NCBI RefSeq assembly: GCF_002223055.1
Contig: NZ_NKFL01000006.1
Location: 248,001 to 312,000 of the forward strand
Reading direction: 5' to 3'
From: Burkholderia sp. HI2500
GTDB lineage: Bacteria; Pseudomonadota; Gammaproteobacteria; Burkholderiales; Burkholderiaceae
Length of the DNA stretch: 64,000 nt
Under the pieces are notes generated by a model. The model saw only the letters and a program-made list of their open reading frames with translations, made no database searches and was not told the DNA's origin. This document shows, piece by piece, positions 35,019-59,173 of the stretch (position 1 is the stretch's first letter; each line of letters begins with the position of its first letter). The translations under genes and the position numbers were made by a program.

Positions 35019-35078
35019 ACGTTGCGTCGCGCGGCGGTGGCGCGCGCCGCCGCCGCGGCGACCGGCCACGAGGGCATC

Positions 35079-35951
35079 ATGGGCGCAGTGCGTATCGATT
35101 CGCATCAGCACTTCTGGCGCTATCGCGCCGCCGATTACCCGTGGATCGGCCCCGGCATGGGCGTGCTCGCGCGCGACTACCTGCCCGATGCGCTGTGGCC
35201 GCTGATGCATGCGCAGGCGATCGGCGCGTCGATCGCGGTGCAGGCGCGCGCCGGGCGCGACGAGACGGCGTTCCTGCTCGATCTCGCGCGCGACGATGCG
35301 CGCATCGCGGCGGTGGTCGGCTGGGAGGATCTCGCCGCGCCGCAGCTCGCGGATCGCATTGCCCAATGGCGCAGCCCGAAGCTGCGCGGGTTTCGTCACC
35401 AGGTGCAGGACGAAGCCGATGCCGGCGCGTTCGTCGCGGAGCCGGGCTTCAACCGCGGCATCGCGTGGCTGCAGGCGAACGGCTACGTGTACGACGTGCT
35501 CGTGTTCGAGCGCCAGTTGCGCGAGGTGTGGGCGTTTTGTGCGCGGCACGACGCGCACTGGCTCGTGCTCGATCACGTCGGCAAGCCCGCACTCGCCGAC
35601 TTCGAGCGCGACGACACGGCGCTCGCGCGCTGGCGCGCCGCGTTGCGCGAGCTGGGCGCGCTGCCGCATGTCGTGTGCAAGCTGTCGGGGCTCGTGACCG
35701 AGGCCGACTGGAAGCGCGGGCTGCGCGGGAAGGACGTCCGGCGCATCGAGCAGTGTCTCGACGCGGCGCTCGACGCGTTCGGCCCGCAGCGGCTGATGTT
35801 CGGGTCGGACTGGCCCGTGTGCCTGCTGGCCGCGTCGTATGACGAAGTGGCGTCGATCATCGAGCGCTGGGCCGAATCGCGATTGTCGGCGGCCGAGCGC
35901 ACCGCGCTGTGGGGCGGCACCGCCGCGCGTTGCTACGCGGTGCCGACGTGA
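35079..35951 (+). CDS. L-fuconolactonase (amidohydrolase superfamily, cog3618)
   Basis: 290 residues. HxH at residues 9-11 (SHQHFWRY), the DHVGKP segment and FGSDWPVC with the catalytic Asp define the cog3618 lactonase group. The enzyme opens L-fucono-lactone to L-fuconate. A Burkholderia multivorans member next to the same dehydrogenase has been characterised. The ATG at 35079 is preceded by GAGG; an upstream TTG in frame is unlikely. Confidence 0.9.
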   Translation: MGAVRIDSHQHFWRYRAADYPWIGPGMGVLARDYLPDALWPLMHAQAIGASIAVQARAGRDETAFLLDLARDDARIAAVVGWEDLAAPQLADRIAQWRSPKLRGFRHQVQDEADAGAFVAEPGFNRGIAWLQANGYVYDVLVFERQLREVWAFCARHDAHWLVLDHVGKPALADFERDDTALARWRAALRELGALPHVVCKLSGLVTEADWKRGLRGKDVRRIEQCLDAALDAFGPQRLMFGSDWPVCLLAASYDEVASIIERWAESRLSAAERTALWGGTAARCYAVPT

Positions 35952-46298: not shown

Positions 46299-47681
46299 TC
46301 AATCGAGCAACTGCCGCACGGCGTCAACGGCCTCGCGGCGCAGCGCGGCCAGGTCGAGGCCTGGAATCTCGCCGTTGTCCACCACGACGCGGCCGTTCAC
46401 GATGTTGTACTTCACCGGCGCGGGCTCGCCGGCCGCAACCGGGGCGATTGCGTAATCGTGGAAGCCGTTGAAGCGCGGCCCGCTCACGTCGTACAGCACG
46501 AGATCGGCGGCCTGGCCCGGTTCCAGCGTGCCGACCGCGTTCAGCCCGAGCACGCGCGCGCCGCCTTGGGTGCCCCAGTGCAGCACCTCCTCGGCGGTGG
46601 TGGCCGCCGCACCGTGCGCCGCACGATGCACGAGCCAGGCGAAATTCGCTTCGTGCGTCATGCTGCCGGATTCGTTCGACGCGACACCGTCGACGCCGAG
46701 CGACACCGGCACGCCGGCCGCCGCCATGCGCGGCGCGGGCGCGATGCCGCTGCCGAGCCGCGCATTGCTGACGGGGCAGTGCGAGCAGCCGGTGCCCGTT
46801 TCGGCGAGCAGCGCGATTTCGTTCTCCTCGAGATGGACGAGGTGCGCGAACCACACATCGGGGCCGAGCCATTCGTGTTCGGCGACGAATTCGACCGGCA
46901 GCTTGCCGTAGCGCTCGCGACAGAAGTCCACGTAACGCGTCGTCTCCGACAGGTGCGAATGCAGCCGCAGGCCCATCCCGCGCGCGGCGCGTGCCACTTC
47001 GGGCAGCAGGTCGGGCGGCAGCGAGAAGGTCGGTGTCGTCGGGGCGACGACCACGCGCCGCATCGATGCCGTGCCCGCGTCGTGATAACGCGCCTTCAGG
47101 CGCTCGATGTCGGCAAGCATCTGGTCGAGCGTCTCGGGCTGCAATGCCGTGCCGGCGAAGCCCGGATGATCGCCGGCCGCCTGCAATGCGCCGCCGCGAC
47201 ACAGCACGAAACGCATCCCGAAGCTGGCCGCTTCGTCGAACAGCAGGTCGCCGGTCTCGGTCGTGCCGCCCGCGTGATACAGGTAGTGGTGATCGGCGCA
47301 GGTCGTCACGCCGGACAGTAGCAGCTCCGCGAAGCCGAGGCGTGCGGCGATGCGCGCGAGTGCCGGCGTGAAGCGCGCGACACGCGGATACGGCACGGCC
47401 GCAAGCCATTCCTGCAGGCCGGCGTTGATCCCGGCCGGCACGGCCTTCAGCAGGTTCTGGAACAGGTGATGATGCGTGTTGACCCAGCCCGGGTAGACGA
47501 CGCAGTCGGTCGCGTCGATCACGCGTTCACCGGGCAGCGGTGCGAGATCAGGCGCAATCGTCTCGATCCGGCCGTCGCGGATGCGCAGGTCGGCCTGGCC
47601 GAGCCGCGCGGCGTCGCCGGTGCGGCCGCTCATGACCGCGATCGGGTTGCGGATCAGCAGCGAAGAAGAAGGAACGCTCAT
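46299..47681 (-). CDS. 8-oxoguanine deaminase-like amidohydrolase
   Basis: 460 residues of the COG0402 group. Metal ligands: NTHHHLFQN (residues near 68-72), LHSHLSET, the LVHLEENEIALL segment and Asp in LGVDGVASNE. The NTHHHLFQ form is typical of 8-oxoguanine deaminases, but chlorohydrolases and other aminohydrolases share the fold. It hydrolyses an amino or similar group on a heterocyclic ring. It lies beside a nucleobase permease, which supports a ring substrate. Confidence 0.83.
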   Translation of the reverse strand: MSVPSSSLLIRNPIAVMSGRTGDAARLGQADLRIRDGRIETIAPDLAPLPGERVIDATDCVVYPGWVNTHHHLFQNLLKAVPAGINAGLQEWLAAVPYPRVARFTPALARIAARLGFAELLLSGVTTCADHHYLYHAGGTTETGDLLFDEAASFGMRFVLCRGGALQAAGDHPGFAGTALQPETLDQMLADIERLKARYHDAGTASMRRVVVAPTTPTFSLPPDLLPEVARAARGMGLRLHSHLSETTRYVDFCRERYGKLPVEFVAEHEWLGPDVWFAHLVHLEENEIALLAETGTGCSHCPVSNARLGSGIAPAPRMAAAGVPVSLGVDGVASNESGSMTHEANFAWLVHRAAHGAAATTAEEVLHWGTQGGARVLGLNAVGTLEPGQAADLVLYDVSGPRFNGFHDYAIAPVAAGEPAPVKYNIVNGRVVVDNGEIPGLDLAALRREAVDAVRQLLD

Positions 47682-47768: not shown

Positions 47769-49142
47769 TCAGTCGCACTCGCGCGCCATCGGGCTGCCGT
47801 GCGCGGCGTCGGCGTGGACGTGCGATTCAACGGGGGCGGCCGCCGGCACACCGTTGAGCAGCGCGTTGAGCAGCACCGACACGAGGCACGCGAGCACGAC
47901 GCCGCTGTGCAGGAACGGCTGCGTCCAGTCGGGCATGTGCGCGAACACCTTCGGCGCCATCACCGGAATCAGCGCGGTCGCGATCGTGAAGCCGACGATC
48001 AGCACGTTGTAGCGGTTGCCTTCGAAGTCGACTTTCGCGAGCGTCTGCACGCCGGCGGCGACCACCACGCCGAACATCGCGATACCGGCACCGCCGAGCG
48101 CGGCCGACGGCGTCGACGCGACGATCGCGCCGATCTTCGGCACCAGCGCGACGACGCACATCAGCACGCCGCTGACCGCGACGATCCAGCGGCTGCGCAC
48201 GCCGGTCAGGATCACGAGCCCGACGTTCTCCATGAACGCGATGAACGGGAACGCGGCGAACGTGCCGGCGATCGCGCTCGCGACGCCGTTCGCCCGCAGC
48301 CCGCGCACCACGTCCTCCTCGCTCACCTGCTTCTCGACGATGTCGCCGATCGCGACGAACAGGCCCATCGACTCGACCATCTGCACGATCATCACGACGA
48401 CCATCGTCAGCACCGGCACGATCGCGAACACCGGTGTGCCGAAGTGGAACGGGTAGGGCACGGTGAACCACGGCGCGGCGGCGACGTTCGTGAAGTTGCC
48501 CATCCCGAGCGCGATCGCGAGCAGGCTGCCCGCGACGAGCCCGATCAGCACCGACAGGTTGCGCAGGAACGCGTTCGCGAAGCGGTTGACCGCGAGGATC
48601 ACGACCGCGACGACGAGCGCGACCGCGAGAAACGACAGCTCGCCGAACTGCAGCTTCGCTGCGTCGCCGCCGCCGGCCCACTGGTACGCGACCGGAAACA
48701 GCTGCAGCCCGATCACGGTGACGATGCAGCCGGTCACGACCGGCGGGAACAGGCGGCGCAGCCGGCCGACCAGCGGCGCGGCGAAGGTCGTGATGATGCC
48801 CGCGCCGATCACCGCGCCGCACACGCCGGCGAATCCCACGCCCGGCGTCAGGCCGATCGCGATCACGGGGCCGACGCTGCTGAACGCGACGCCCTGCAGG
48901 ATCGGCAGGCGCACGCCGAGTTTCCAGACGCCGACCGTTTGCAGGATCGTCGAGATGCCGGAACAGAACAGCGCGGTGCTGATCAGCACGGTCGTGTCGG
49001 CGGGCGACATCTTCAACGCCGATGCGACGATCAGCGGCACCGCGATCGCGCCGATATAGGCGACGAGCATGTGTTGCAGGCCGAGCGTCAGCATCTGGCG
49101 GCGCGGCAGGACCCGATCGACGGGATGTGAAGCAGCGTTCAT
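47769..49142 (-). CDS. NCS2 family nucleobase permease
   Basis: 457 residues with about twelve to fourteen hydrophobic helices. The transport motif QMVESMGLFVAIGD and the signature FMENVGLVILTGVRSR (N-x-G-x4-T form) mark the xanthine/uracil permease group. The C-terminus is His/Ala-rich. It imports a purine- or pyrimidine-like heterocycle with protons, presumably the substrate of the operon. The start at 49142 has a GGAG site. Confidence 0.9.
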   Translation of the reverse strand: MNAASHPVDRVLPRRQMLTLGLQHMLVAYIGAIAVPLIVASALKMSPADTTVLISTALFCSGISTILQTVGVWKLGVRLPILQGVAFSSVGPVIAIGLTPGVGFAGVCGAVIGAGIITTFAAPLVGRLRRLFPPVVTGCIVTVIGLQLFPVAYQWAGGGDAAKLQFGELSFLAVALVVAVVILAVNRFANAFLRNLSVLIGLVAGSLLAIALGMGNFTNVAAAPWFTVPYPFHFGTPVFAIVPVLTMVVVMIVQMVESMGLFVAIGDIVEKQVSEEDVVRGLRANGVASAIAGTFAAFPFIAFMENVGLVILTGVRSRWIVAVSGVLMCVVALVPKIGAIVASTPSAALGGAGIAMFGVVVAAGVQTLAKVDFEGNRYNVLIVGFTIATALIPVMAPKVFAHMPDWTQPFLHSGVVLACLVSVLLNALLNGVPAAAPVESHVHADAAHGSPMARECD

Positions 49143-49203: not shown

Positions 49204-50337
49204 TCAGGCCGCGACCGCCGCGGCGAGACAGGCATGGAAGCGGTCGGTCAGCGCGGCGCGATCGAGGTCGCGGCCGATGAAAACGATGCGTGACGAGCGC
49301 GGCTCGCACCCCCACGCCTGCGCGGCGCGCAGTTCGATCACGCCGTGCACGCCCTGCAGCACGTAGCGCTGCGCGCGGCCCTGCACGGCGAGGATGCCCT
49401 TCATCCGGAACAGGTTCGCGGTATCGGCGCGGCGCAGCTCGCCGAGCCACGCCTCGAGCGCGTCGAGATCGACGTCCGCCTCCACTTCGATGCCGACCGA
49501 CGACACGCTCGCGTCGTGTTCGTGATGATCGTGATCGTCGTCGTGTGCGCGGGCTTCGTGCGCGTGGTCGTCGTGCTCATGCTTGTGCTCGTGCTCGTGC
49601 TCGTGCTCATGCTCGTGCGCGTGTTCGTCCGCATGCGGCGCATCGGCCTGCAGCCCGTCGCTCTCGACGAGGATCTGCGCGAATTCGTTCGCGCCGATGC
49701 CGAGGATGCGATCGAGATCGACCTGCGCATAGCTCGACGTGACGATCTCCGCCGTCGTGTTCAGCGCGCGCAGCCGCGCGGTCAGCGCATCGACGTCCGG
49801 TGCGTCGACGAGGTCGACCTTGTTGATCACGATGCGGTCCGCGCAGACGATCTGGTCGACCGCCTGGTTGTCGCGGCCGTCGAGCACCAGATCGTCGAGG
49901 TGCGCGCGGATATGCTTCGCGTCGACCATCGTGACGACCGCGTCGAGCGCGACCTCCTTCGCGATCGGATCGTCGAGGAAGAAGGTCTGCGCGACCGGAT
50001 ACGGATCGGCGAGGCCGCTCGTCTCGACGATGATGTGATCGAGCCGGTCGGGGCGCGCGACGAGCATCCGCACGATCCGCACGAGATCCTCGCGCACCGC
50101 GCCGACGCAGCACACGCAGCCGTTGGTCATCTCGTAGATTTCCTCGGTCGATTCGAGCACGAGGCCGCCGTCGATGCCGATCTCGCCGAACTCGTTCTCG
50201 ATCACCGCGATCTTGCGGCCGTGCTTCTCGCGCAGGATGTAGTTCAGCAGCGTGGTCTTGCCCGCGCCGAGAAAGCCGGTGAGCACGGTGACCGGAATCT
50301 TCTCGACGTCGCTGTGGGTGGTGTGGATGTGGGTCAT
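49204..50337 (-). CDS. CobW/COG0523 GTPase metallochaperone with His-rich linker
   Basis: 377 residues. Walker [10 protein letters not shown] (residue 19 onward), the CxCC metal site [12 protein letters not shown] base recognition, and a C-terminal CobW_C domain. Between them a strongly His/Glu-rich stretch (about residues 230-275, HEHEHEHE repeats) offers many zinc-binding positions. It probably loads metal into one of the operon's amidohydrolases, the deaminase or the paired ACMSD-like enzymes. Its start overlaps the previous stop by ATGA. Confidence 0.9.
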
Positions 50338-50948
50338 GATGCATCTCCGTTGAGTCGGTTGGGCTGCGGGTTCGGCTGTGATGCGTTTTCTTTCCAGCGA
50401 TGGACGGTGCGGGAATCGAGGTCGAACAGGTCGAGCACGCGGCCGAGCGTGTGGTCGATCATCTGGTCGAGCGAAGCGGGGCGCGCGTAGAACGCCGGCA
50501 CCGGCGGCGCGACGATCGCGCCCATCTCCGTGACGGTGGCCATGTTGCGCAGGTGCGTGAGCGTGTACGGCGTCTCGCGTGCGAGCAGCACGAGCCGGCG
50601 GCGCTCCTTCAGCACGACGTCGGCCGCGCGCGAGATCAGGCCGGAGGAAAGACCGCTCGCGATCTCGGCGAGCGTCTTCATCGAGCACGGCGCGACGATC
50701 ATCCCGAGCGTGCGGAACGACCCGCTCGAGATCGGCGCCGCGATGTCGTCGCTGCGGTACAGCACGCTCGCGAGCGCCGTGATGTCGGACAGCCGGAAGT
50801 CGGTCTCGTGCGCCATCGTCAGCGCAGCGGCGCGCGACACGACGACGTGCGTCTCGATGTCGAGGTCGCGCAGCAGCGCGAGCAGCCGCATCCCGTACAC
50901 GAAGCCGGATGCACCGCTGATGCCGACCACGAGCCGCCGCGCGCTCAT
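50334..50948 (-). CDS. UbiX-type flavin prenyltransferase
   Basis: 204 residues. The FMN-binding [11 protein letters not shown] is at residues 8-18, and the [20 protein letters not shown] segment and the RxxL/RETP segment are standard. It makes prenylated FMN, the cofactor of UbiD decarboxylases. The partner UbiD gene overlaps its start by four bases. Cytoplasmic. Confidence 0.92.
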
Positions 50949-52339
50949 CGCGACGCTCCGCCGAGTTGCGCGATCACGTGTGCGGCACGCTGCATCGCGG
51001 CGTCGCCGACGCGTGCGCGCACGCCGTCGAAGCGCGAGCCGCGCGTCGCGTCGATCCCCATCCGCGACGTCGTGCCGTCGGCCGACGACGACGGATCGAG
51101 CGGGCTGCCGGGCAGGCCGTCGACGACGAACAGGTCGCGGTGCGGCTGGAAGTGCGTCGCGATGGCCCACAGCACCTGCGCGTCGTCGGTGATGTCGACG
51201 TCGCTGTCGACCGCGACGACGTTCTTCAGGTACGGATCCCAGCCGAGCAGCGCGAGCATGATCTGGCGCGCCTCGCCGTCGCGCGACTGCTTCAGCGCGA
51301 CGTAGCAGTGAAAGTGCGTGCCGGAATTCGGATAGTGAATCGCGGTGACGGCCGGAAAGCGCGCCTTCAGCTTCTCGCTCATCTCGGCTTCGCGCGGCAG
51401 GCGCGCGAGCGTCAGGTGTTCCGCGTACGGGCCGCCGACCACGTCGACGAGCCATGCATCCTTGCGCCGCATCATCGCGTCGATGCGCAGCACGTTGTTG
51501 GTCGAGCGGTCCGACGAGTAGCCGGTGAATTCGCCGAACGGGCCTTCTTCCGCATGCGCGTCGGGATCGATCGTGCATTCGAGCACGAACTCGGCGGCGG
51601 CCGGCACGCCGATGCCGTGTCGCGGCGTGCGCACGAGCTGCAGCGGCGCGCCGAACAACCCGCCGGCAATCGCGCGCTCATCCGCGCCGAACGGCACGCG
51701 AGCGGCGGCCGCGAGCATGAACAGCGGATGCGCGCCGATCACCATCGCCACCTTGAGCGTGTCGCCGCGCGCCTTCGCGGTCTGCAGCATCCGCCACAGA
51801 TGGCCGCGCGAATGCAGGCTCGTCGCCAGCGCGTTGCGCGCATGCGGCATCGAGCGGTGGTAGCTGAGGTTCGCGACGCCCGTCACCGGATCTTCGGCGA
51901 CGATCACCGCGTTGGTCACGTAGGGCCCGCGATCGGTTTCGAAGTGGCGGATCATCGGCAACTGCGCGAGATCGACCGCGTCGCCTTCGGTCACCTGATC
52001 GAGCACGGGGCCGTGCGGCACGACGACCGGCGCGACGGGCGCGTTCGCACGCTGCTGCCACGCGTCGAACAGGCCGTTCGCATCGACGCCGAACAGCCGG
52101 CCGATGCGCGTGCGGGACGCAAATACGTTGGTGACGAGCGGTGTCGACACACCGTCGACGCGCTCGCAGACGAGCATCTCGTGTCGCCCGCGCGCGGCGA
52201 GCGACGCGACGACGGCCGTGACGTCCTGGTCGGCGGACAGCGGCTGCGCGAGCGTCAGCACGTCGTCCGGAAAGCGTTCGCGATAGGCGTTCGCGAAGTG
52301 ATGAAAATCCTGCTGCTCGGCGAAAAAGCTGGACGCCAT
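50945..52339 (-). CDS. UbiD-family decarboxylase
   Basis: 464 residues. The Asn/Glu-Arg-Glu catalytic area of UbiD is seen in the [23 protein letters not shown] segment, and the N-terminal ERVDG and [18 protein letters not shown] segments are typical of the family. It uses prenyl-FMN to decarboxylate (or carboxylate) an unsaturated or aromatic acid. Length fits the 450-500 residue norm. Together with UbiX it forms one translational unit. Substrate unknown. Confidence 0.92.
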
Positions 52340-52420: not shown

Positions 52421-53326
52421 TTACAGGTAGGTCGACGTGAGGCGCTTCTGCGCTTCGTCGAGATCCTTCGGCGGCCTGGTCGGCTCGATGCCGACGAGGC
52501 GGGCGATGTTGTTGCCCATGTAGTCCTCGAGGCCGTCCTCGTCGAGATCCATCCCCTGCGGCGCGGGCCCGCACAGCATTTCCAGCTCGCGCAGCCACAT
52601 GCCGGGTTCGTTCGGCGGCGAATCGGTGCCGAACACGATCTTGTTGCGCGGCAGCTCGCGGGCGAACTCGACGATCCGCGACTGGTAGCACCAGCCCGAT
52701 TCGCAGTACACGTTCGGCGTATCCATCGCCATCCAGAACGCTTCGAACGAGTAGTTGCCACCCGTCTGGATCCCGAAGTGACCGATGATGAAGTTCACCA
52801 TCGGAAACTCGCGGATGATCGGATAGAACTGCGTCGGGATCGTGTACGGGCCGTCACCGGTGTGGATCAGCACGACGATGTTGTACTTCGCGCAGACCTT
52901 CATCGCGGGGCGCAGCCAGTCGAGCGCGCGATCGGGCCGGTAGCCGTGCATGTTCGCGTGCAGCTTCACCATCTTGAAGCCGTACTCCCTGATGTGGAAT
53001 TCGAGCTCCGCCGCGCCGTTCTCCGGGCCCCAGCGCGGGTTGTACGTGAAGTTGCCGATGAAGCGGTCGGGGTACTTCTGCGTGAGCTCGGCGATATACG
53101 CCATGTAGTCGCGAATGCCTTCACGGCCGCGGCGGTTGCCGTCGCGATAGCCGGTGTTGCCCGGCGGCGGCTGGATGAAGCCCATGTCGATGCGGCGCGG
53201 CTTGCCGTTGATGATGTACGGGCCGTCCATCATCTTCAGCAGGCGTTCGCCGGTGAACGGTTCGCCGGTGTGGCGCCAGGCCTCGTCGACGAGGTTGGTC
53301 GGGTGCAGGTGCGTATCGATGATCAT
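52421..53326 (-). CDS. ACMSD-like metal-dependent amidohydrolase (active-site complete)
   Basis: 301 residues, amidohydrolase 2 family. The N-terminal metal motif is intact (IIDTHLHP, residues 2-9), with a later His in LIHTGDGPYTIP and FIIGHFG and Asp in FGTDSPPNEPG. It acts as a hydrolase or a metal-dependent decarboxylase (ACMSD/5-carboxyvanillate decarboxylase kin). The upstream paralogue is visibly similar along the whole length, so this is a tandem duplication. Gap to it is 36 bases. Confidence 0.88.
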   Translation of the reverse strand: MIIDTHLHPTNLVDEAWRHTGEPFTGERLLKMMDGPYIINGKPRRIDMGFIQPPPGNTGYRDGNRRGREGIRDYMAYIAELTQKYPDRFIGNFTYNPRWGPENGAAELEFHIREYGFKMVKLHANMHGYRPDRALDWLRPAMKVCAKYNIVVLIHTGDGPYTIPTQFYPIIREFPMVNFIIGHFGIQTGGNYSFEAFWMAMDTPNVYCESGWCYQSRIVEFARELPRNKIVFGTDSPPNEPGMWLRELEMLCGPAPQGMDLDEDGLEDYMGNNIARLVGIEPTRPPKDLDEAQKRLTSTYL

Positions 53327-53362
53327 GCAATGCTCCGGAATCGGGAGAGAGGGGCGCGGGCG

Positions 53363-54265
53363 TCAGGCGGCGAGCAGGGCTTTCGCTTCGTCGACGGTGC
53401 GCGGCGCGGGCGTCGGTTCGAGGCCGATCATTCGCGCGGTGTTGTTGCCGAGGTAATCCTCGAGCGTGTCCTCGTCGAGATTCATCCCTTGCGGCGGATC
53501 GAAGCACAGCACCTCGAGCAGCCGCAGCCACATGCCCGGTTCGTTCGGCGGCGTGTCGGAGCCGAACAGGATCTTGTGCTTCGGCAGCACCTTCGCGAAT
53601 TCGACGATCCGCGACTGCAGGCACCAGCCCGATTCGCAATACACGTTCGGCAGGTCCATCGCGAGCTGGAACGGCTCGAAGCAGTAGACGCCGCCCGTCT
53701 GCACCCCGAAGTGCGCCATGATGAAATTGACCGTCGGGAATTCCTTGATCATCGGCACCCACTCGGTCGGGATGCTGTACGGGCCGTCGCCGGTGTGCAG
53801 CTTCACGAGCACGCCGAGTTCCGCGCATTTCTTCAGCGCGGGGCGCAGCCAGTCGAGTGCGCGGTCGGGCCGGTACGCATGCATGTTGGCCTGGAACTGC
53901 ACCATCTTGAAGCCGAGCTTGCGCACGTAGTGATCGATCGCGTTCACGCCGTTCTCCACCCCGCAGCGCGGGTTGTAGACGAAGCAGCCGATGAAGCGGT
54001 CGGGGTGCTTGCGCACCATCTCGACCGTATACGCCATGTACGCATCGATCGATTCGGTGCCCGACTTCTCGCCGTCGGTATACGTATAGATGGTGTTGCC
54101 TTGCGGCGGCTGGATGAACGCCTTGTCGACGCGGCGCGGCTTGCCGTTGATGAGGAACGGGCCGTTCATCGTCTCGATCAGGCGCTCGCCGGTGAACGGC
54201 GGGCCGTCGTGACGCCATGCGAGGTCGACGAGATTCGTCGGGTAACAGCTGGTGTCGATGATCAT
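53363..54265 (-). CDS. ACMSD-like amidohydrolase paralogue lacking the HxH metal motif
   Basis: 300 residues, similar to the next gene along the whole length (same LVDLAWRH, FTGERL, NGKPRR, HTGDGP and PPNEPG segments). The N-terminal HxH is replaced: IIDTSCYP instead of IIDTHLHP, so both first metal ligands are gone (Ser and Tyr). The other ligand segments (LHTGDGP, MAHFG, FGSDTPPNEPG) remain. It could be a non-catalytic partner subunit, or use a different metal arrangement. It is the first gene of the operon, behind the divergent LysR gene. Confidence 0.88.
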   Translation of the reverse strand: MIIDTSCYPTNLVDLAWRHDGPPFTGERLIETMNGPFLINGKPRRVDKAFIQPPQGNTIYTYTDGEKSGTESIDAYMAYTVEMVRKHPDRFIGCFVYNPRCGVENGVNAIDHYVRKLGFKMVQFQANMHAYRPDRALDWLRPALKKCAELGVLVKLHTGDGPYSIPTEWVPMIKEFPTVNFIMAHFGVQTGGVYCFEPFQLAMDLPNVYCESGWCLQSRIVEFAKVLPKHKILFGSDTPPNEPGMWLRLLEVLCFDPPQGMNLDEDTLEDYLGNNTARMIGLEPTPAPRTVDEAKALLAA

Positions 54266-54508: not shown

Positions 54509-55399
54509 ATGGACATGCGTGTGTTGCGTTACTTCGCGGTGCTGGCCGACGAACTGCATTTCGGGCGCGCGGCCGCGCGGCTCCATATCTCGCAGCCGCC
54601 GTTGAGCCAGCAGATCCGGCTGCTCGAGGAGCAGCTCGGCACTGCGCTGTTCGTACGCTCGCAGCATCGCGTCGAATTGACCGAGGCAGGGAAAACACTG
54701 AAGGAGCAGGTGCCGCTGATCGTCGCGCAGTTCGATCGCGCGATCGATCTCACGCGTTGCGCGGGGCGCGGCGAAGTGGGGCGGCTCGCGGTCGGCATCA
54801 TCAGCTCGGCGATGGTCGTGCCGATTCCGCGTGCGTTGCGCGTGTTCGCCGAACGCCATCCGCACGTGCACTGGTCGCTGCACGAGATGACGCCGGCCGC
54901 GCAGATCGATGCGCTGAAGGAGAAGCGGCTCGACGTGTGCTTCTTCCGGCTGTTCCAGGACGATCCGGCGATCCGCAGCGAGATCGTGGTGCGCGAAACG
55001 GCCGTGGCCGTGCTGCCGTCAGGCCATCCGCTCGCGTCGCGCGACGCGATCGCGCTCGGCGAGCTGGCCGGCGAGCAGTTCGTGTCATTCGGCTTGCGGC
55101 ATTCGCAACTGGCGCGCTTCCTGCAGCAGAGCTGTGTCGATGCGCGCTTCACGCCGCGGATCGCGCACGAGGTCGTCGAGGTGCACACGCTGCTGTCGCT
55201 GGTGCGTGAAGGGCTGGGCGTCGCGCTGCTGCCCGCGTCGTCGCGGCAGATCTCGACGGGCGGCGTCGCGTTCGTGCCGCTGCTGCCGCCGGCGCTCGAG
55301 GTGTCGCTGCAGGCGCGCTACCGCGCGGACGATACGTCCGCGGTGCTCGGCGCGTTCCTCGACACCGTGCGCGAGGTCGCGGCGGAGTTCAGCGCGTAG
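54509..55399 (+). CDS. LysR regulator, probable controller of the UbiD/amidohydrolase operon
   Basis: 296 residues. Winged helix-turn-helix at residues 1-60 (FGRAAARLHISQPPLSQQI), effector domain after residue 90. It is divergent from the first amidohydrolase gene with 243 bases between starts. LysR activators normally control the divergent operon in response to a pathway intermediate. The C-terminal end lies 9 bases from another, convergent LysR gene. Confidence 0.9.
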   Translation: MDMRVLRYFAVLADELHFGRAAARLHISQPPLSQQIRLLEEQLGTALFVRSQHRVELTEAGKTLKEQVPLIVAQFDRAIDLTRCAGRGEVGRLAVGIISSAMVVPIPRALRVFAERHPHVHWSLHEMTPAAQIDALKEKRLDVCFFRLFQDDPAIRSEIVVRETAVAVLPSGHPLASRDAIALGELAGEQFVSFGLRHSQLARFLQQSCVDARFTPRIAHEVVEVHTLLSLVREGLGVALLPASSRQISTGGVAFVPLLPPALEVSLQARYRADDTSAVLGAFLDTVREVAAEFSA

Positions 55400-55408
55400 C
55401 GGCGCGCA

Positions 55409-56302
55409 TCAACATGCGAGCGACTGCGCGACCAGCGTACCGATCGCGTCGACCAGCGGCTTGACGCGCGCATGGCGCTCGCGCGGCCAGATCGCGTGCA
55501 GGTTGTAGTGCGTCGGAATCGCGATCGTGCAGAGTTCGACGAGCCGGCCGTCGCGGCGCGCATCCGCGGCGAGCAGCCCGCGCACCAGCCCGGCGCCGAG
55601 CCCGGACGCGAGCGTTGCGACGAGCCCCGCCGCGTTGTCGAACACGGCGATCGTGTCCGGTTCGACGGGTTCGAGGCCCGCCGCTTCGAGCCACGGAATC
55701 CACGACCGCTTCGTATAGCCGAGCAGCGGCAGCTCCAACACCTGTTCGGGCGTGAGCGGCGCGGTCAGCCCGTAACGTTCGAGCAGCGCCGGCGCGGCCA
55801 TCGCGGTCAGCCGGTCGGGGCAGACCAGCGCGCTGTCCACGCCTTCCCATTCGCCGTAGCCATAGCGCAGCGCGACATCGATGTGGTCGAATGCATCGCG
55901 ATCATGGCGCGGCGCTGACAGCACCGTCAGCGTCGTGCCGTCGAGCGTGCGCATCAATGCCGGCAGCCGCGCGGGCAGCCAGCCCTGCATCAGTTCCGGA
56001 TCGACGTCGAGCCGGAGTGACGGCCCGGTCGTGCGCCCCTTCACCGACGACAGTGCGCGATCGATCTGCTCGAGCCCGTCCGACAACTGGTTCGCGAACA
56101 GCGTGCCGGCATCGGTCAGCATCACGCGGCCGCCGGCGCGGGCGAACAGCGGCTGGCCGATGAATTCCTCGAGCGAGCGAATCTGCTGGCTGATCGCGCT
56201 GTGCGTGAGCGCCAGCTGGCGTGCCGCGCTGGAAAAGCTGCCGACCCGCGCGGCGTGCAGAAACGCCTGCATCGACTGGATCGAAGGGTATCGCTTGAGC
56301 AT
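55409..56302 (-). CDS. LysR regulator adjacent to the IorAB-type genes
   Basis: 297 residues. Helix-turn-helix region contains FSSAARQLALTHSAISQQI, as in the GcvA-like branch of LysR proteins. It is divergent from the 2Fe-2S/molybdopterin oxidoreductase pair with about 130 bases between starts, so it likely controls them. It is convergent with the other LysR gene and clearly different from it in the effector part. Confidence 0.9.
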   Translation of the reverse strand: MLKRYPSIQSMQAFLHAARVGSFSSAARQLALTHSAISQQIRSLEEFIGQPLFARAGGRVMLTDAGTLFANQLSDGLEQIDRALSSVKGRTTGPSLRLDVDPELMQGWLPARLPALMRTLDGTTLTVLSAPRHDRDAFDHIDVALRYGYGEWEGVDSALVCPDRLTAMAAPALLERYGLTAPLTPEQVLELPLLGYTKRSWIPWLEAAGLEPVEPDTIAVFDNAAGLVATLASGLGAGLVRGLLAADARRDGRLVELCTIAIPTHYNLHAIWPRERHARVKPLVDAIGTLVAQSLAC

Positions 56303-56430
56303 CTGTTAGTCCGACTGACAGGGATTCGACGAAATGATCGCTGGCGCACCCGCGCATCGCGTTTCGATAATGCTCCGGAACCGCGCGATGGGCGCGGGCC
56401 GACCCAGGAATGCGAATCAGGAGACCGCGC

Positions 56431-56925
56431 ATGATCGACATCGTCGTGAACGATACACGCCATTCGCTCGAGAATGTACCGGGGGATATGCCGTTGCTGT
56501 GGGTGCTGCGCGACCGGCTCAAGCTCACCGGCACGAAGTTCGGCTGCGGCAAGGGCCTGTGCGGCGCGTGCACCGTGCATCTCGACGGGCAGGCCGTGCG
56601 CGCGTGCCTGATTCCGGCCGTCGCCGCGCACGGGCGGCACGTGACGACGATCGAGGGGTTGTCGCCGGACGGGCGGCATCCGCTGCAACTCGCGTGGGTC
56701 GCCGAGGACGTGCCGCAATGCGGCTATTGCCAGCCGGGGCAGCTGATGCAGGCGGCCGCGCTGCTGAAGGGCGGGCAGCCGGTGGACGACGATGCCATCG
56801 TGCAGGCGATGTCGGGCAATATCTGCCGCTGCGGCACGTATGCACGTATTCACCGCGCGATCAAGCGTGCGGCGTCCGGCGATCCGTCGCTGAAGGCCGC
56901 GGCCGAACCCGCGAAGGAGGCGTGA
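56431..56925 (+). CDS. 2Fe-2S subunit of a molybdenum hydroxylase (IorA-like)
   Basis: 164 residues. Plant-ferredoxin-type cluster: Cys39, Cys44, Cys47 and Cys59; second helical cluster: Cys97, Cys100, Cys132 and Cys134. This is the small subunit of the two-subunit isoquinoline 1-oxidoreductase type. It moves electrons from the molybdenum site to a cytochrome. It starts after GGAG and lies one base before the large subunit gene. Confidence 0.92.
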
Positions 56926-56926
56926 C

Positions 56927-59173
56927 ATGCGCGACGATCACGCACCGGATGCACCGCATGGCGATGGCACGCCGCGCCGGCGTTTTCTCAAGCAGGGTTC
57001 GGCGCTGCTGGCCGCAGGCATCGCGATCGGCTTCCGGATGCCCGACGCGGCGGCCGCCGGCAAGCACGCGAGCGGCGATCCGCATCCGGCCGCCGGCGAA
57101 TTCGAACCGAACGCGTGGGTGCGCGTGCTGCCCGACGACACGATCAAGCTCGTCGTGCACAAGCACGATTCGGGCACCGGCACGCGCACCGCGCTCGCGG
57201 CAGTGGTGGCCGAGGAGCTCGACGTCGATCCGTTCCGGGTCGACGTGATCACGCCGGAAGATCCGTTCTTCGCCGACTACCTTCATCCGCTGTGGAAAGT
57301 GTTCTCGACCGGCGGCAGCACGAGTGTCGCGATGGAGTACGACCGGCTGCGTCGAGCGGGCGCGACCGCGCGTGCGATGCTCGTCGAAGCGGCGGCGCAT
57401 CAATGGGGCGTGCCCGCTTCTGCGTGTACGACGGCAGACGGCGCCGTGCTGCAGGCGTCGAGCGGCCGCCGGGCGACGTACGGCGCGCTCGCGCAGGTGG
57501 CCTCGCAGTTGCCGGCGCCGAAGCAGGTCGCGCTGAAAGATCCCGCGCAGTTCCGCTACATCGGCAAGCTGCGCAAGAAGCGCGGCGCCGCGCAGAAGGC
57601 CGACGGCTCGTTTCCGTACAGCATCGACGTGTCGCTGCCGGGGATGCTGGTCGCGGTCGTCACGCGTGCGCCGGTGATCGACGGCCGCGTGCGCAGCGTC
57701 GATGCGAAGGCGGCGCTCGCGATTCCCGGCGTGCGCGACGTGCTGCAGATTCCGCCGCGCCCCGACGTGCTCGGCGGCAACCAGGCCGGCGTCGCGGTGC
57801 TCGCGGACGACTACTGGTCCGCGCATCAAGGGCAGGCCGCGCTGACGATCGAATGGGAGGACAGCCTGTTCGAAACCTTCGACAGCAGCACGCTCGCCGC
57901 GCGCCAGGCCGCGTGGCTCGACGATCCGGCCGCGCGCGTCGTGCCGACGATCGCCGACGGCGATCCGGCGAAGGCCCATGCGGCCGGCGCGCGCACGATC
58001 GAGGCGTCGTATGCGATGCCGCACAAGGCCGCGAATCCGCTGGAGCCGATCAACCTCACGGTGTGGGCACGCAACGGCGGCATCGAGTACTGGGGCGGGC
58101 TGCAGGTGCCGTCGACCGCGATGGAAGCGGCGGAGGTGATCGGCGGCATTCCTTCGCATCGGGTGACGCTGCACGAGCTGGTGTCGGGCGGCAGCTTCGG
58201 CGCGCGCGAATCGAAGTACTGGCTGTTCGAGGCGACGTGGCTCGCGATGAAGACCGGCAAGCCCGTGAAGCTGATGAACAGCCGCGAGGACGAGATGCGC
58301 GCGCTGTTCTATCACGCGGCAAGCTACCACCGTGCGCACGCGGTGCTCGATGCGCAGGGCAATCTCGCGTCGCTGTGGCTGCGCGCCGTGATGCCCGCCT
58401 CGCCGCAGCAGTGGGAGCCCGGCTATCTCGAGCGCGCCGACCGGATGGATTTCAGCACGACCGAGGCCATCACGAAATGGGAGTTCGCGTATGCGGCGCC
58501 GCATCGCGACATCGGCTGGATCAGGATGGAGACGGGCGTGCCGACCGGCTGGTTCCGCGCGGTGAGCTACATCCCGAACGTGTTCGCGGTCGAATCGGTG
58601 ATGGACGAGGCCGCGCACGCGGCGAAGCGCGACCCGGTCGAGTTCCGGCTCGCGCACATGCGCGACCGGCCGCGCCATGCGGCCGTGCTGCGTGAAGCGG
58701 CGCAACGAGCGGGGTGGGGCCAGCCGCTGCCGGACGGTGTCGCACTCGGCATCGCGACGAACCAGGCGTACGACAGCTATGTCGCGGTGGTCGCGCGGGT
58801 CGTGCGCAAGGACGGCGCGGTGCGCGTGGAGAAGCTGACGTGTGTCGCCGATTGCGGGATCGCGGTGTCGCCGGCCGGCGTCGACGAGCAACTGTACGGC
58901 GGCCTGATGTGGGGGCTCGGCCACGCGACGTCCGATCGCATCGACTTCCGGCACGGCCGCGTGCAGCAGTCGAACTTCGATACGTATCGCGTGATGCGGA
59001 TGAGCGACATGCCCGATACCGACATTCACATCGTGCAGGGCGATCCGGCGAAGCCGGGCGGTGTCGGTGAGCTGTCGAGCCCGGCGGTGACGCCGGCGAT
59101 TGCGAACGCGGTATTCCGGCTGACGGGGAAGCGGTTGCGGGAGACGCCTTTCGATTTGTCGGCGGTGGCGTAG
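56927..59173 (+). CDS. Molybdopterin-binding large subunit (IorB-like oxidoreductase)
   Basis: 748 residues, the IorB length. A twin-arginine leader, RRRFLKQGSALLAAG (about residue 14), sends the cofactor-loaded enzyme to the periplasm. Molybdopterin segments are present, including the late GGVGELSSPAV with the catalytic Glu and SGGSFGARESKYW. The enzyme hydroxylates N-heterocycles or oxidises aldehydes. Substrate is not evident. No MoCo maturation gene is adjacent. AAGGAGG precedes the start. Confidence 0.92.
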   Translation: MRDDHAPDAPHGDGTPRRRFLKQGSALLAAGIAIGFRMPDAAAAGKHASGDPHPAAGEFEPNAWVRVLPDDTIKLVVHKHDSGTGTRTALAAVVAEELDVDPFRVDVITPEDPFFADYLHPLWKVFSTGGSTSVAMEYDRLRRAGATARAMLVEAAAHQWGVPASACTTADGAVLQASSGRRATYGALAQVASQLPAPKQVALKDPAQFRYIGKLRKKRGAAQKADGSFPYSIDVSLPGMLVAVVTRAPVIDGRVRSVDAKAALAIPGVRDVLQIPPRPDVLGGNQAGVAVLADDYWSAHQGQAALTIEWEDSLFETFDSSTLAARQAAWLDDPAARVVPTIADGDPAKAHAAGARTIEASYAMPHKAANPLEPINLTVWARNGGIEYWGGLQVPSTAMEAAEVIGGIPSHRVTLHELVSGGSFGARESKYWLFEATWLAMKTGKPVKLMNSREDEMRALFYHAASYHRAHAVLDAQGNLASLWLRAVMPASPQQWEPGYLERADRMDFSTTEAITKWEFAYAAPHRDIGWIRMETGVPTGWFRAVSYIPNVFAVESVMDEAAHAAKRDPVEFRLAHMRDRPRHAAVLREAAQRAGWGQPLPDGVALGIATNQAYDSYVAVVARVVRKDGAVRVEKLTCVADCGIAVSPAGVDEQLYGGLMWGLGHATSDRIDFRHGRVQQSNFDTYRVMRMSDMPDTDIHIVQGDPAKPGGVGELSSPAVTPAIANAVFRLTGKRLRETPFDLSAVA

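Follow-up and report, generated by a model that had tools for sequence, protein, structure and literature searches.

The window analysed here, 64,000 nucleotides of Burkholderia sp. HI2500 (contig NZ_NKFL01000006.1, positions 248,001 to 312,000), contains two adjacent genes for amidohydrolase-fold proteins, and it raises a simple question: what is the use of a sister copy that has lost metal ligands kept by its neighbour? The upstream protein begins with MIIDTSCYPT and the downstream one with MIIDTHLHPT, and we call them SCYP and HLHP. We think that the two are probably kept together in many soil bacteria as one two-part enzyme of pteridine breakdown. In its full form, our proposal is that SCYP and HLHP are obligate parts of a single amidohydrolase-fold enzyme encoded in a pteridine-catabolic operon, HLHP being the catalytic and SCYP the metal-less partner; in this form, we advance it with slightly less than even confidence.

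The two sister proteins and their metal residues

SCYP (53363..54265, minus strand, 300 amino acids) is the product of the first gene of the operon, and HLHP (52421..53326, minus strand, 301 amino acids) is that of the next. Both reading frames are intact, a stretch resembling a ribosome-binding site (aaggag, ggag) precedes each start codon, and the gap between the genes is 36 bases. The proteins are identical at 194 of 300 aligned positions (65%). Both score above the curated PF04909 cut-off of 26.4 bits, HLHP with 161.6 and SCYP with 118.3 bits, the match of SCYP beginning only from residue 70.

HLHP possesses H6, H8, K121, H123, H155, H183, and D235. Among these are the residues of an ACMSD-type mononuclear metal site (H6, H8, H155, and D235 with the catalytic H183), as read from the order of residues in the sequence rather than from superposed coordinates, and HLHP would be the protein that holds the working metal site. 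SCYP has S6 and Y8 in place of H6 and H8, just as the original prediction had described for the upstream of two tandem amidohydrolases. That prediction also held that the other metal segments were kept. This is true of H157, H185, and D237, but on the fourth barrel strand the KxH, which in HLHP lies within KLHAN (K121 and H123), has been lost and is represented in SCYP by Q123 and Q125. The residues thus suggest that SCYP no longer binds the metal.

To place these differences, we used 302 relatives found with SCYP and 303 found with HLHP, of which the best 120 were listed in each case. A quick-method tree was built from 65 of 185 proteins, with a length of 275-345 residues and less than 87% mutual identity. 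All 33 sequences without HxH fell on one side of a single branch, with a Shimodaira-Hasegawa-like approximate likelihood ratio (SH-aLRT) support of 99. Residues were then counted in 62 of the 65 non-redundant rows, namely 33 of the SCYP clade and 29 of the HLHP type; three HxH rows (P0114, P0155, and P0179) were excluded. P0114 comes from a contig of 1,015 bases, and its first half is HLHP-like and its second half SCYP-like; it may be an assembly chimera or a recombinant, or it may represent SCYP at an early stage.

The replacing residues of SCYP are nearly fixed. That is, S6, Y8, and Q123 were each found in 32 of the 33 SCYP rows and Q125 in 31, whereas H6, H8, K121, and H123 were present in all 29 HLHP-type rows. 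Position 155 is Lys or Arg in 33/33 SCYP rows and Leu or Met in 29/29 HLHP-type rows. Altogether, 12 positions differ between the groups while being at least 85% fixed within each. According to the secondary structure assigned to the HLHP model, strands contain positions 6, 92, 121, and 236 and are immediately followed by positions 8 and 123, whereas positions 55, 166, 167, 196, 198, and 277 belong to helices. This suggests that the pocket of SCYP has been remodelled, at least by the group-specific strand positions. One sub-lineage of SCYP (nine rows, MIIDSACHPT) has Ala at 6, His at 8, and Ser or Thr at 237, and thus the old metal site seems to be unneeded in SCYP.

Pairing of the two genes across genomes

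A genome scan confirmed 312 relatives, and the following counts refer to the loci of the best 80. In 80/80 loci, SCYP was the gene immediately upstream of HLHP, both being on one strand, and a UbiD gene came next after the pair in 78, the contig ending in the other two. These loci span Burkholderia, Paraburkholderia, Caballeronia, Cupriavidus, Massilia, Marinobacterium, and Pseudomonas, among others. When five plasmid loci of Sinorhizobium, Paracoccus, Ensifer, and Shinella were added, the two genes were adjacent in 85/85 loci and UbiD followed in 83 (contig ends again accounting for the other two). The distance between the two starts ranged over 917-1044 bases in these 85 loci, with a median of 941.

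We also searched whole genomes with a SCYP profile in four overlapping samples, at an expectation value (E) limit of 1e-80 for the class and order samples and 1e-70 for the phylum and family samples. In the class sample, 1 of 369 genomes matched, which was the window's own. The order sample gave 5 of 399 genomes and the phylum sample 4 of 398, all with two adjacent copies. In the Burkholderiaceae sample, where adjacency was observed among the matches listed, 84 of 398 genomes matched; 82 of them had two matches, one had three, and one had four. None of these 84 genomes had a single match. The genome with three matches was G1309, and G1412 contained two complete pairs.

The original prediction was to be checked by whether the TSCYP form is a conserved group of its own beside the HLH form, and it named restriction to one strain as what would refute it. 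The clade, its nearly fixed residues, and the pairing show such a group, and the SCYP type occurs across many genomes, contrary to that restriction. A hetero-oligomer, one of the roles then suggested, is compatible with the strict pairing of the two genes. Judging from this pairing, we hold a SCYP-HLHP hetero-oligomer to be reasonably likely, and the earlier interpretation as a whole is partly supported.

The loss of several catalytic residues might alternatively mean that SCYP is a decaying duplicate. We compared the window with 13 loci and obtained ratios of nonsynonymous to synonymous substitution (dN/dS) of 0.007-0.23 for SCYP, lower than those of UbiD in 10/13 loci and higher than those of HLHP in 7/13. 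SCYP is under purifying selection. These low ratios, the nearly fixed replacement residues, and the lack of single-copy genomes among those sampled contradict decay, to which we give practically no weight. A random mutation or a pseudogene was likewise ruled out by the single clade, the relatives, the low dN/dS, and the same lack of single-copy genomes.

Another explanation is that SCYP and HLHP are separate enzymes of successive steps. HLHP would then be a metal-dependent ring hydrolase. SCYP would work without metal, for example in a ring-closing dehydration, and K155, near the old metal position, would supply the charge of the metal. The replacements in SCYP, nearly fixed and clustered at pocket positions, fit this explanation, as does the strict division at position 155, a residue that stands two before H157 and hence would face the same way. 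The pocket of SCYP is, however, not uniform, given S/T237 and H8 in the nine-row sub-lineage, and strict adjacency suits a complex at least equally well. We consider separate enzymes unlikely.

The operon and its probable pathway

Downstream of the pair, on the minus strand, lie the genes for a UbiD-family decarboxylase (50945..52339, 464 amino acids, above the TIGR00148 cut-off) and a UbiX-family flavin prenyltransferase (50334..50948, the start being taken at the ATG that overlaps the end of UbiD). They are followed by a CobW-type GTPase (49204..50337), a possible metal chaperone, which scores above the Pfam cut-offs for cobW and CobW_C and below those of NCBIfam for CobW and ZigA. Then come an NCS2 permease (47769..49142, above the cut-off of the xanthine permease subfamily TIGR03173) and a deaminase of 460 amino acids (46299..47681). 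On the other side, a LysR-type regulator (54509..55399, plus strand) is divergent from SCYP, and a second one (55409..56302, minus strand) precedes a molybdenum hydroxylase, whose 2Fe-2S subunit (56410..56925) and molybdopterin subunit (56927..59173) are on the plus strand. The latter has an N-terminal RRRFLKQ that by eye resembles a twin-arginine translocation (Tat) signal, and hydroxylation may take place outside the cytoplasm. Elsewhere in the window, a further PF04909 protein (35022..35951, plus strand) exceeds the cut-off for L-fucono-1,5-lactonase; it is unrelated to this operon.

Neighbourhoods were compared in the 72 loci that covered 18 kb or more, with genes counted at 40% identity or more. 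UbiD was found in all 72, the NCS2 permease in 67, the molybdenum hydroxylase in 66, UbiX and CobW in 61 each, and the deaminase in 55. Every locus had at least one of the hydroxylase and the deaminase. The hydroxylase was of the window's two-subunit type in 49/72 loci and of a three-subunit xanthine-dehydrogenase type in 17/72.

The top match of the deaminase among solved structures was 2paj (453 residues, E 1.1e-139), which we take to be the enzyme reported by Hall et al. in 2010 as isoxanthopterin deaminase, and it scored 803.6 bits against a cut-off of 543 for NF009059, a model that presumably stands for the same activity. By these two matches, the protein is a predicted isoxanthopterin deaminase. 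NF009059 was above its cut-off in 103 of the 398 Burkholderiaceae genomes, that is, in 82 of 84 genomes with the pair and 21 of 314 without it (Fisher p 3e-62, relatedness ignored). The pair and the deaminase were on one contig, at most 18.1 kb apart, in 76 genomes and on different contigs in six; G1323 and G1333 had the pair without this family. The enzymes of Hall 2010a are described in a later paper as deaminating isoxanthopterin and pterin-6-carboxylate (PMC5270733).

The surrounding genes indicate that an N-heterocycle, probably a pteridine, is catabolized, and we regard pteridines as the likely substrate class of the pair. The operon could instead degrade a purine, for example by hydrolysis of the xanthine ring, with UbiD as an imidazole carboxylate decarboxylase. 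Clostridial xanthine breakdown runs through imidazole carboxylates, and the permease above the xanthine subfamily cut-off, the xanthine-dehydrogenase-type hydroxylase of 17 loci, and the cytosine-deaminase-like enzyme of the plasmid loci would suit such a route. But the window's deaminase matches 2paj far above any 8-oxoguanine or guanine deaminase and reaches only 434.6 of the 532 bits set as the cut-off for 8-oxoguanine deaminase, and the pair co-occurs with the 2paj-like family. A purine route seems to us quite unlikely.

If the substrate is a pteridine, the following pathway can be considered. The substrate would enter through the NCS2 permease, the deaminase would convert isoxanthopterin to 7-hydroxylumazine, and the molybdenum hydroxylase would convert this to 2,4,6,7-tetrahydroxypteridine. 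The pair would open the dioxopyrazine ring and re-close it to xanthine-8-carboxylate, which UbiD, with prenyl-flavin mononucleotide made by UbiX, would decarboxylate to xanthine. The CobW-type GTPase would help to supply the metal. SCYP, with its metal site lost and its remodelled pocket nearly fixed, would bind HLHP and complete or shape the active site of HLHP.

The ring contraction would correspond to EC 5.5.1.3, which we take to be tetrahydroxypteridine cycloisomerase, an orphan activity that forms xanthine-8-carboxylate from tetrahydroxypteridine. The activity dates from the 1960s and reportedly belongs to the McNutt route of pteridine breakdown, and to our knowledge no gene has been assigned to it. 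A hydrolytic opening followed by ring closure would suit an amidohydrolase-fold pair that follows a molybdenum hydroxylase and precedes a decarboxylase, and by elimination of the other operon genes the pair is the only candidate for this step. That the pair catalyzes it is possible but, in our judgement, more doubtful than the substrate class. More specifically, HLHP may use metal-dependent amide hydrolysis to open the dioxopyrazine ring, and SCYP, whose K155 would stand close to the metal position, may close the imidazole without metal to give the xanthine-8-carboxylate used by UbiD, the two together being the cycloisomerase. This division of labour is a speculation that we think improbable as it stands. 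In the open-licence literature, a scope outside which most subscription journals lie, we found no published description of the pair or of its pathway and no paper on the cycloisomerase; the lone match around EC 5.5.1.3 was a urine metabolomics table giving two compounds under one mass.

Known enzymes and points against the proposal

Several points weigh against our proposal, and the first concerns the fold. In a structure comparison, decarboxylases were the closest matches of known function to the fold of the HLHP model. The closeness of this fold to ACMSD, whose zinc-site residues HLHP has in the same order, speaks for the proposal. The ACMSD, dihydroxybenzoate, isoorotate, and 5-carboxyvanillate decarboxylases share the fold of HLHP, which has the His-His-His-Asp set plus a further His, at 12-22% identity in the structural alignments listed. 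The pair might be a heteromeric enzyme of the ACMSD or isoorotate decarboxylase type, with a pteridine or purine carboxylate as its substrate and UbiD at another step. UbiD already provides a decarboxylase in 83/85 loci, however, and hydrolases and hydratases also occur within this fold, and we judge such an enzyme to be unlikely. ACMSD-type decarboxylases are described as homo-oligomers, without a metal-less sister, whereas HLHP has SCYP. In favour of our proposal, the active site of ACMSD is shared across the dimer, the neighbouring subunit contributing Arg239. An Arg at the corresponding offset is lacking in HLHP, as counted naively from H183 rather than by residue-level structural alignment.

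The other opposing points concern inheritance and pathway. Across 83 loci, the distance matrices of SCYP and HLHP correlated at 0.858, no better than those of HLHP and UbiD (0.856), the value for SCYP and UbiD being 0.759. HLHP-type proteins that retain HxH also occur in Actinomycetota and Caldilineales (P0138, P0139, P0142, P0152, and P0157; about 67-74% identical). In L050 and L067 (Paraburkholderia, Caballeronia), SCYP stands out as an outlier but HLHP does not. Their SCYP is 83-85% identical to that of L009, L016, and L024, and their HLHP shares 94-97% identity with the HLHP of the locus nearest to the window, which looks like a separate exchange of SCYP. Within the stretch covered, 17/72 loci had neither deaminase type, and the alphaproteobacterial plasmid loci carry a cytosine-deaminase-like enzyme instead of the 2paj-like one. 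The depositors' label for 2paj is putative cytosine/guanine deaminase, and the Fisher p value for co-occurrence takes no account of kinship among genomes.

A precedent for a catalytic and an auxiliary sister is AibH1H2, described in two papers as a 2-aminoisobutyrate hydroxylase in which AibH2 is catalytic and AibH1 auxiliary (PMC12141560, PMC10401708). As in our pair, two PF04909 proteins are encoded by adjoining genes; AibH1 is nevertheless still metal-bound, and AibH2, which has a Rieske partner, is an oxygenase with a dinuclear Mn/Fe site and another ligand set. The shared family and the sister arrangement might suggest that our pair is a dinuclear monooxygenase of the AibH1H2 or PtmU3 kind. 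However, compared by pattern rather than by alignment, HLHP has D235-SPPNE where AibH2 has D337, H340, and D342 (D-x-x-H-x-D), and His on strand 6 in place of E265. No Rieske ferredoxin was found among the operon genes examined, the rest of the window not having been scanned for one. A dinuclear oxygenase was rejected for HLHP on its ligand pattern, and a monooxygenase of this kind seems very improbable. Our searches found no sequence relation to AibH1H2; AibH1H2 was also absent from the 50 structural matches listed for HLHP, which excludes nothing. No solved relative of SCYP was found by sequence at E 0.001, and its profile gave only weak matches to solved structures (best, 4inf at 0.022).

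Returning to our proposal of a two-part enzyme, the pair is strictly conserved and one sister has had its metal ligands swapped for a nearly fixed set, so that the role of a metal-less partner becomes directly testable. If the cycloisomerase is indeed split, one duplication would have given a ring contraction two halves, one with metal and one without. If the pathway is as we propose, genes annotated plainly as amidohydrolase would gain a function in many proteobacteria, among them Sinorhizobium meliloti 1021 with the pair at about 151237-153102 of pSymB, and the pair would provide candidate genes for pteridine ring contraction.
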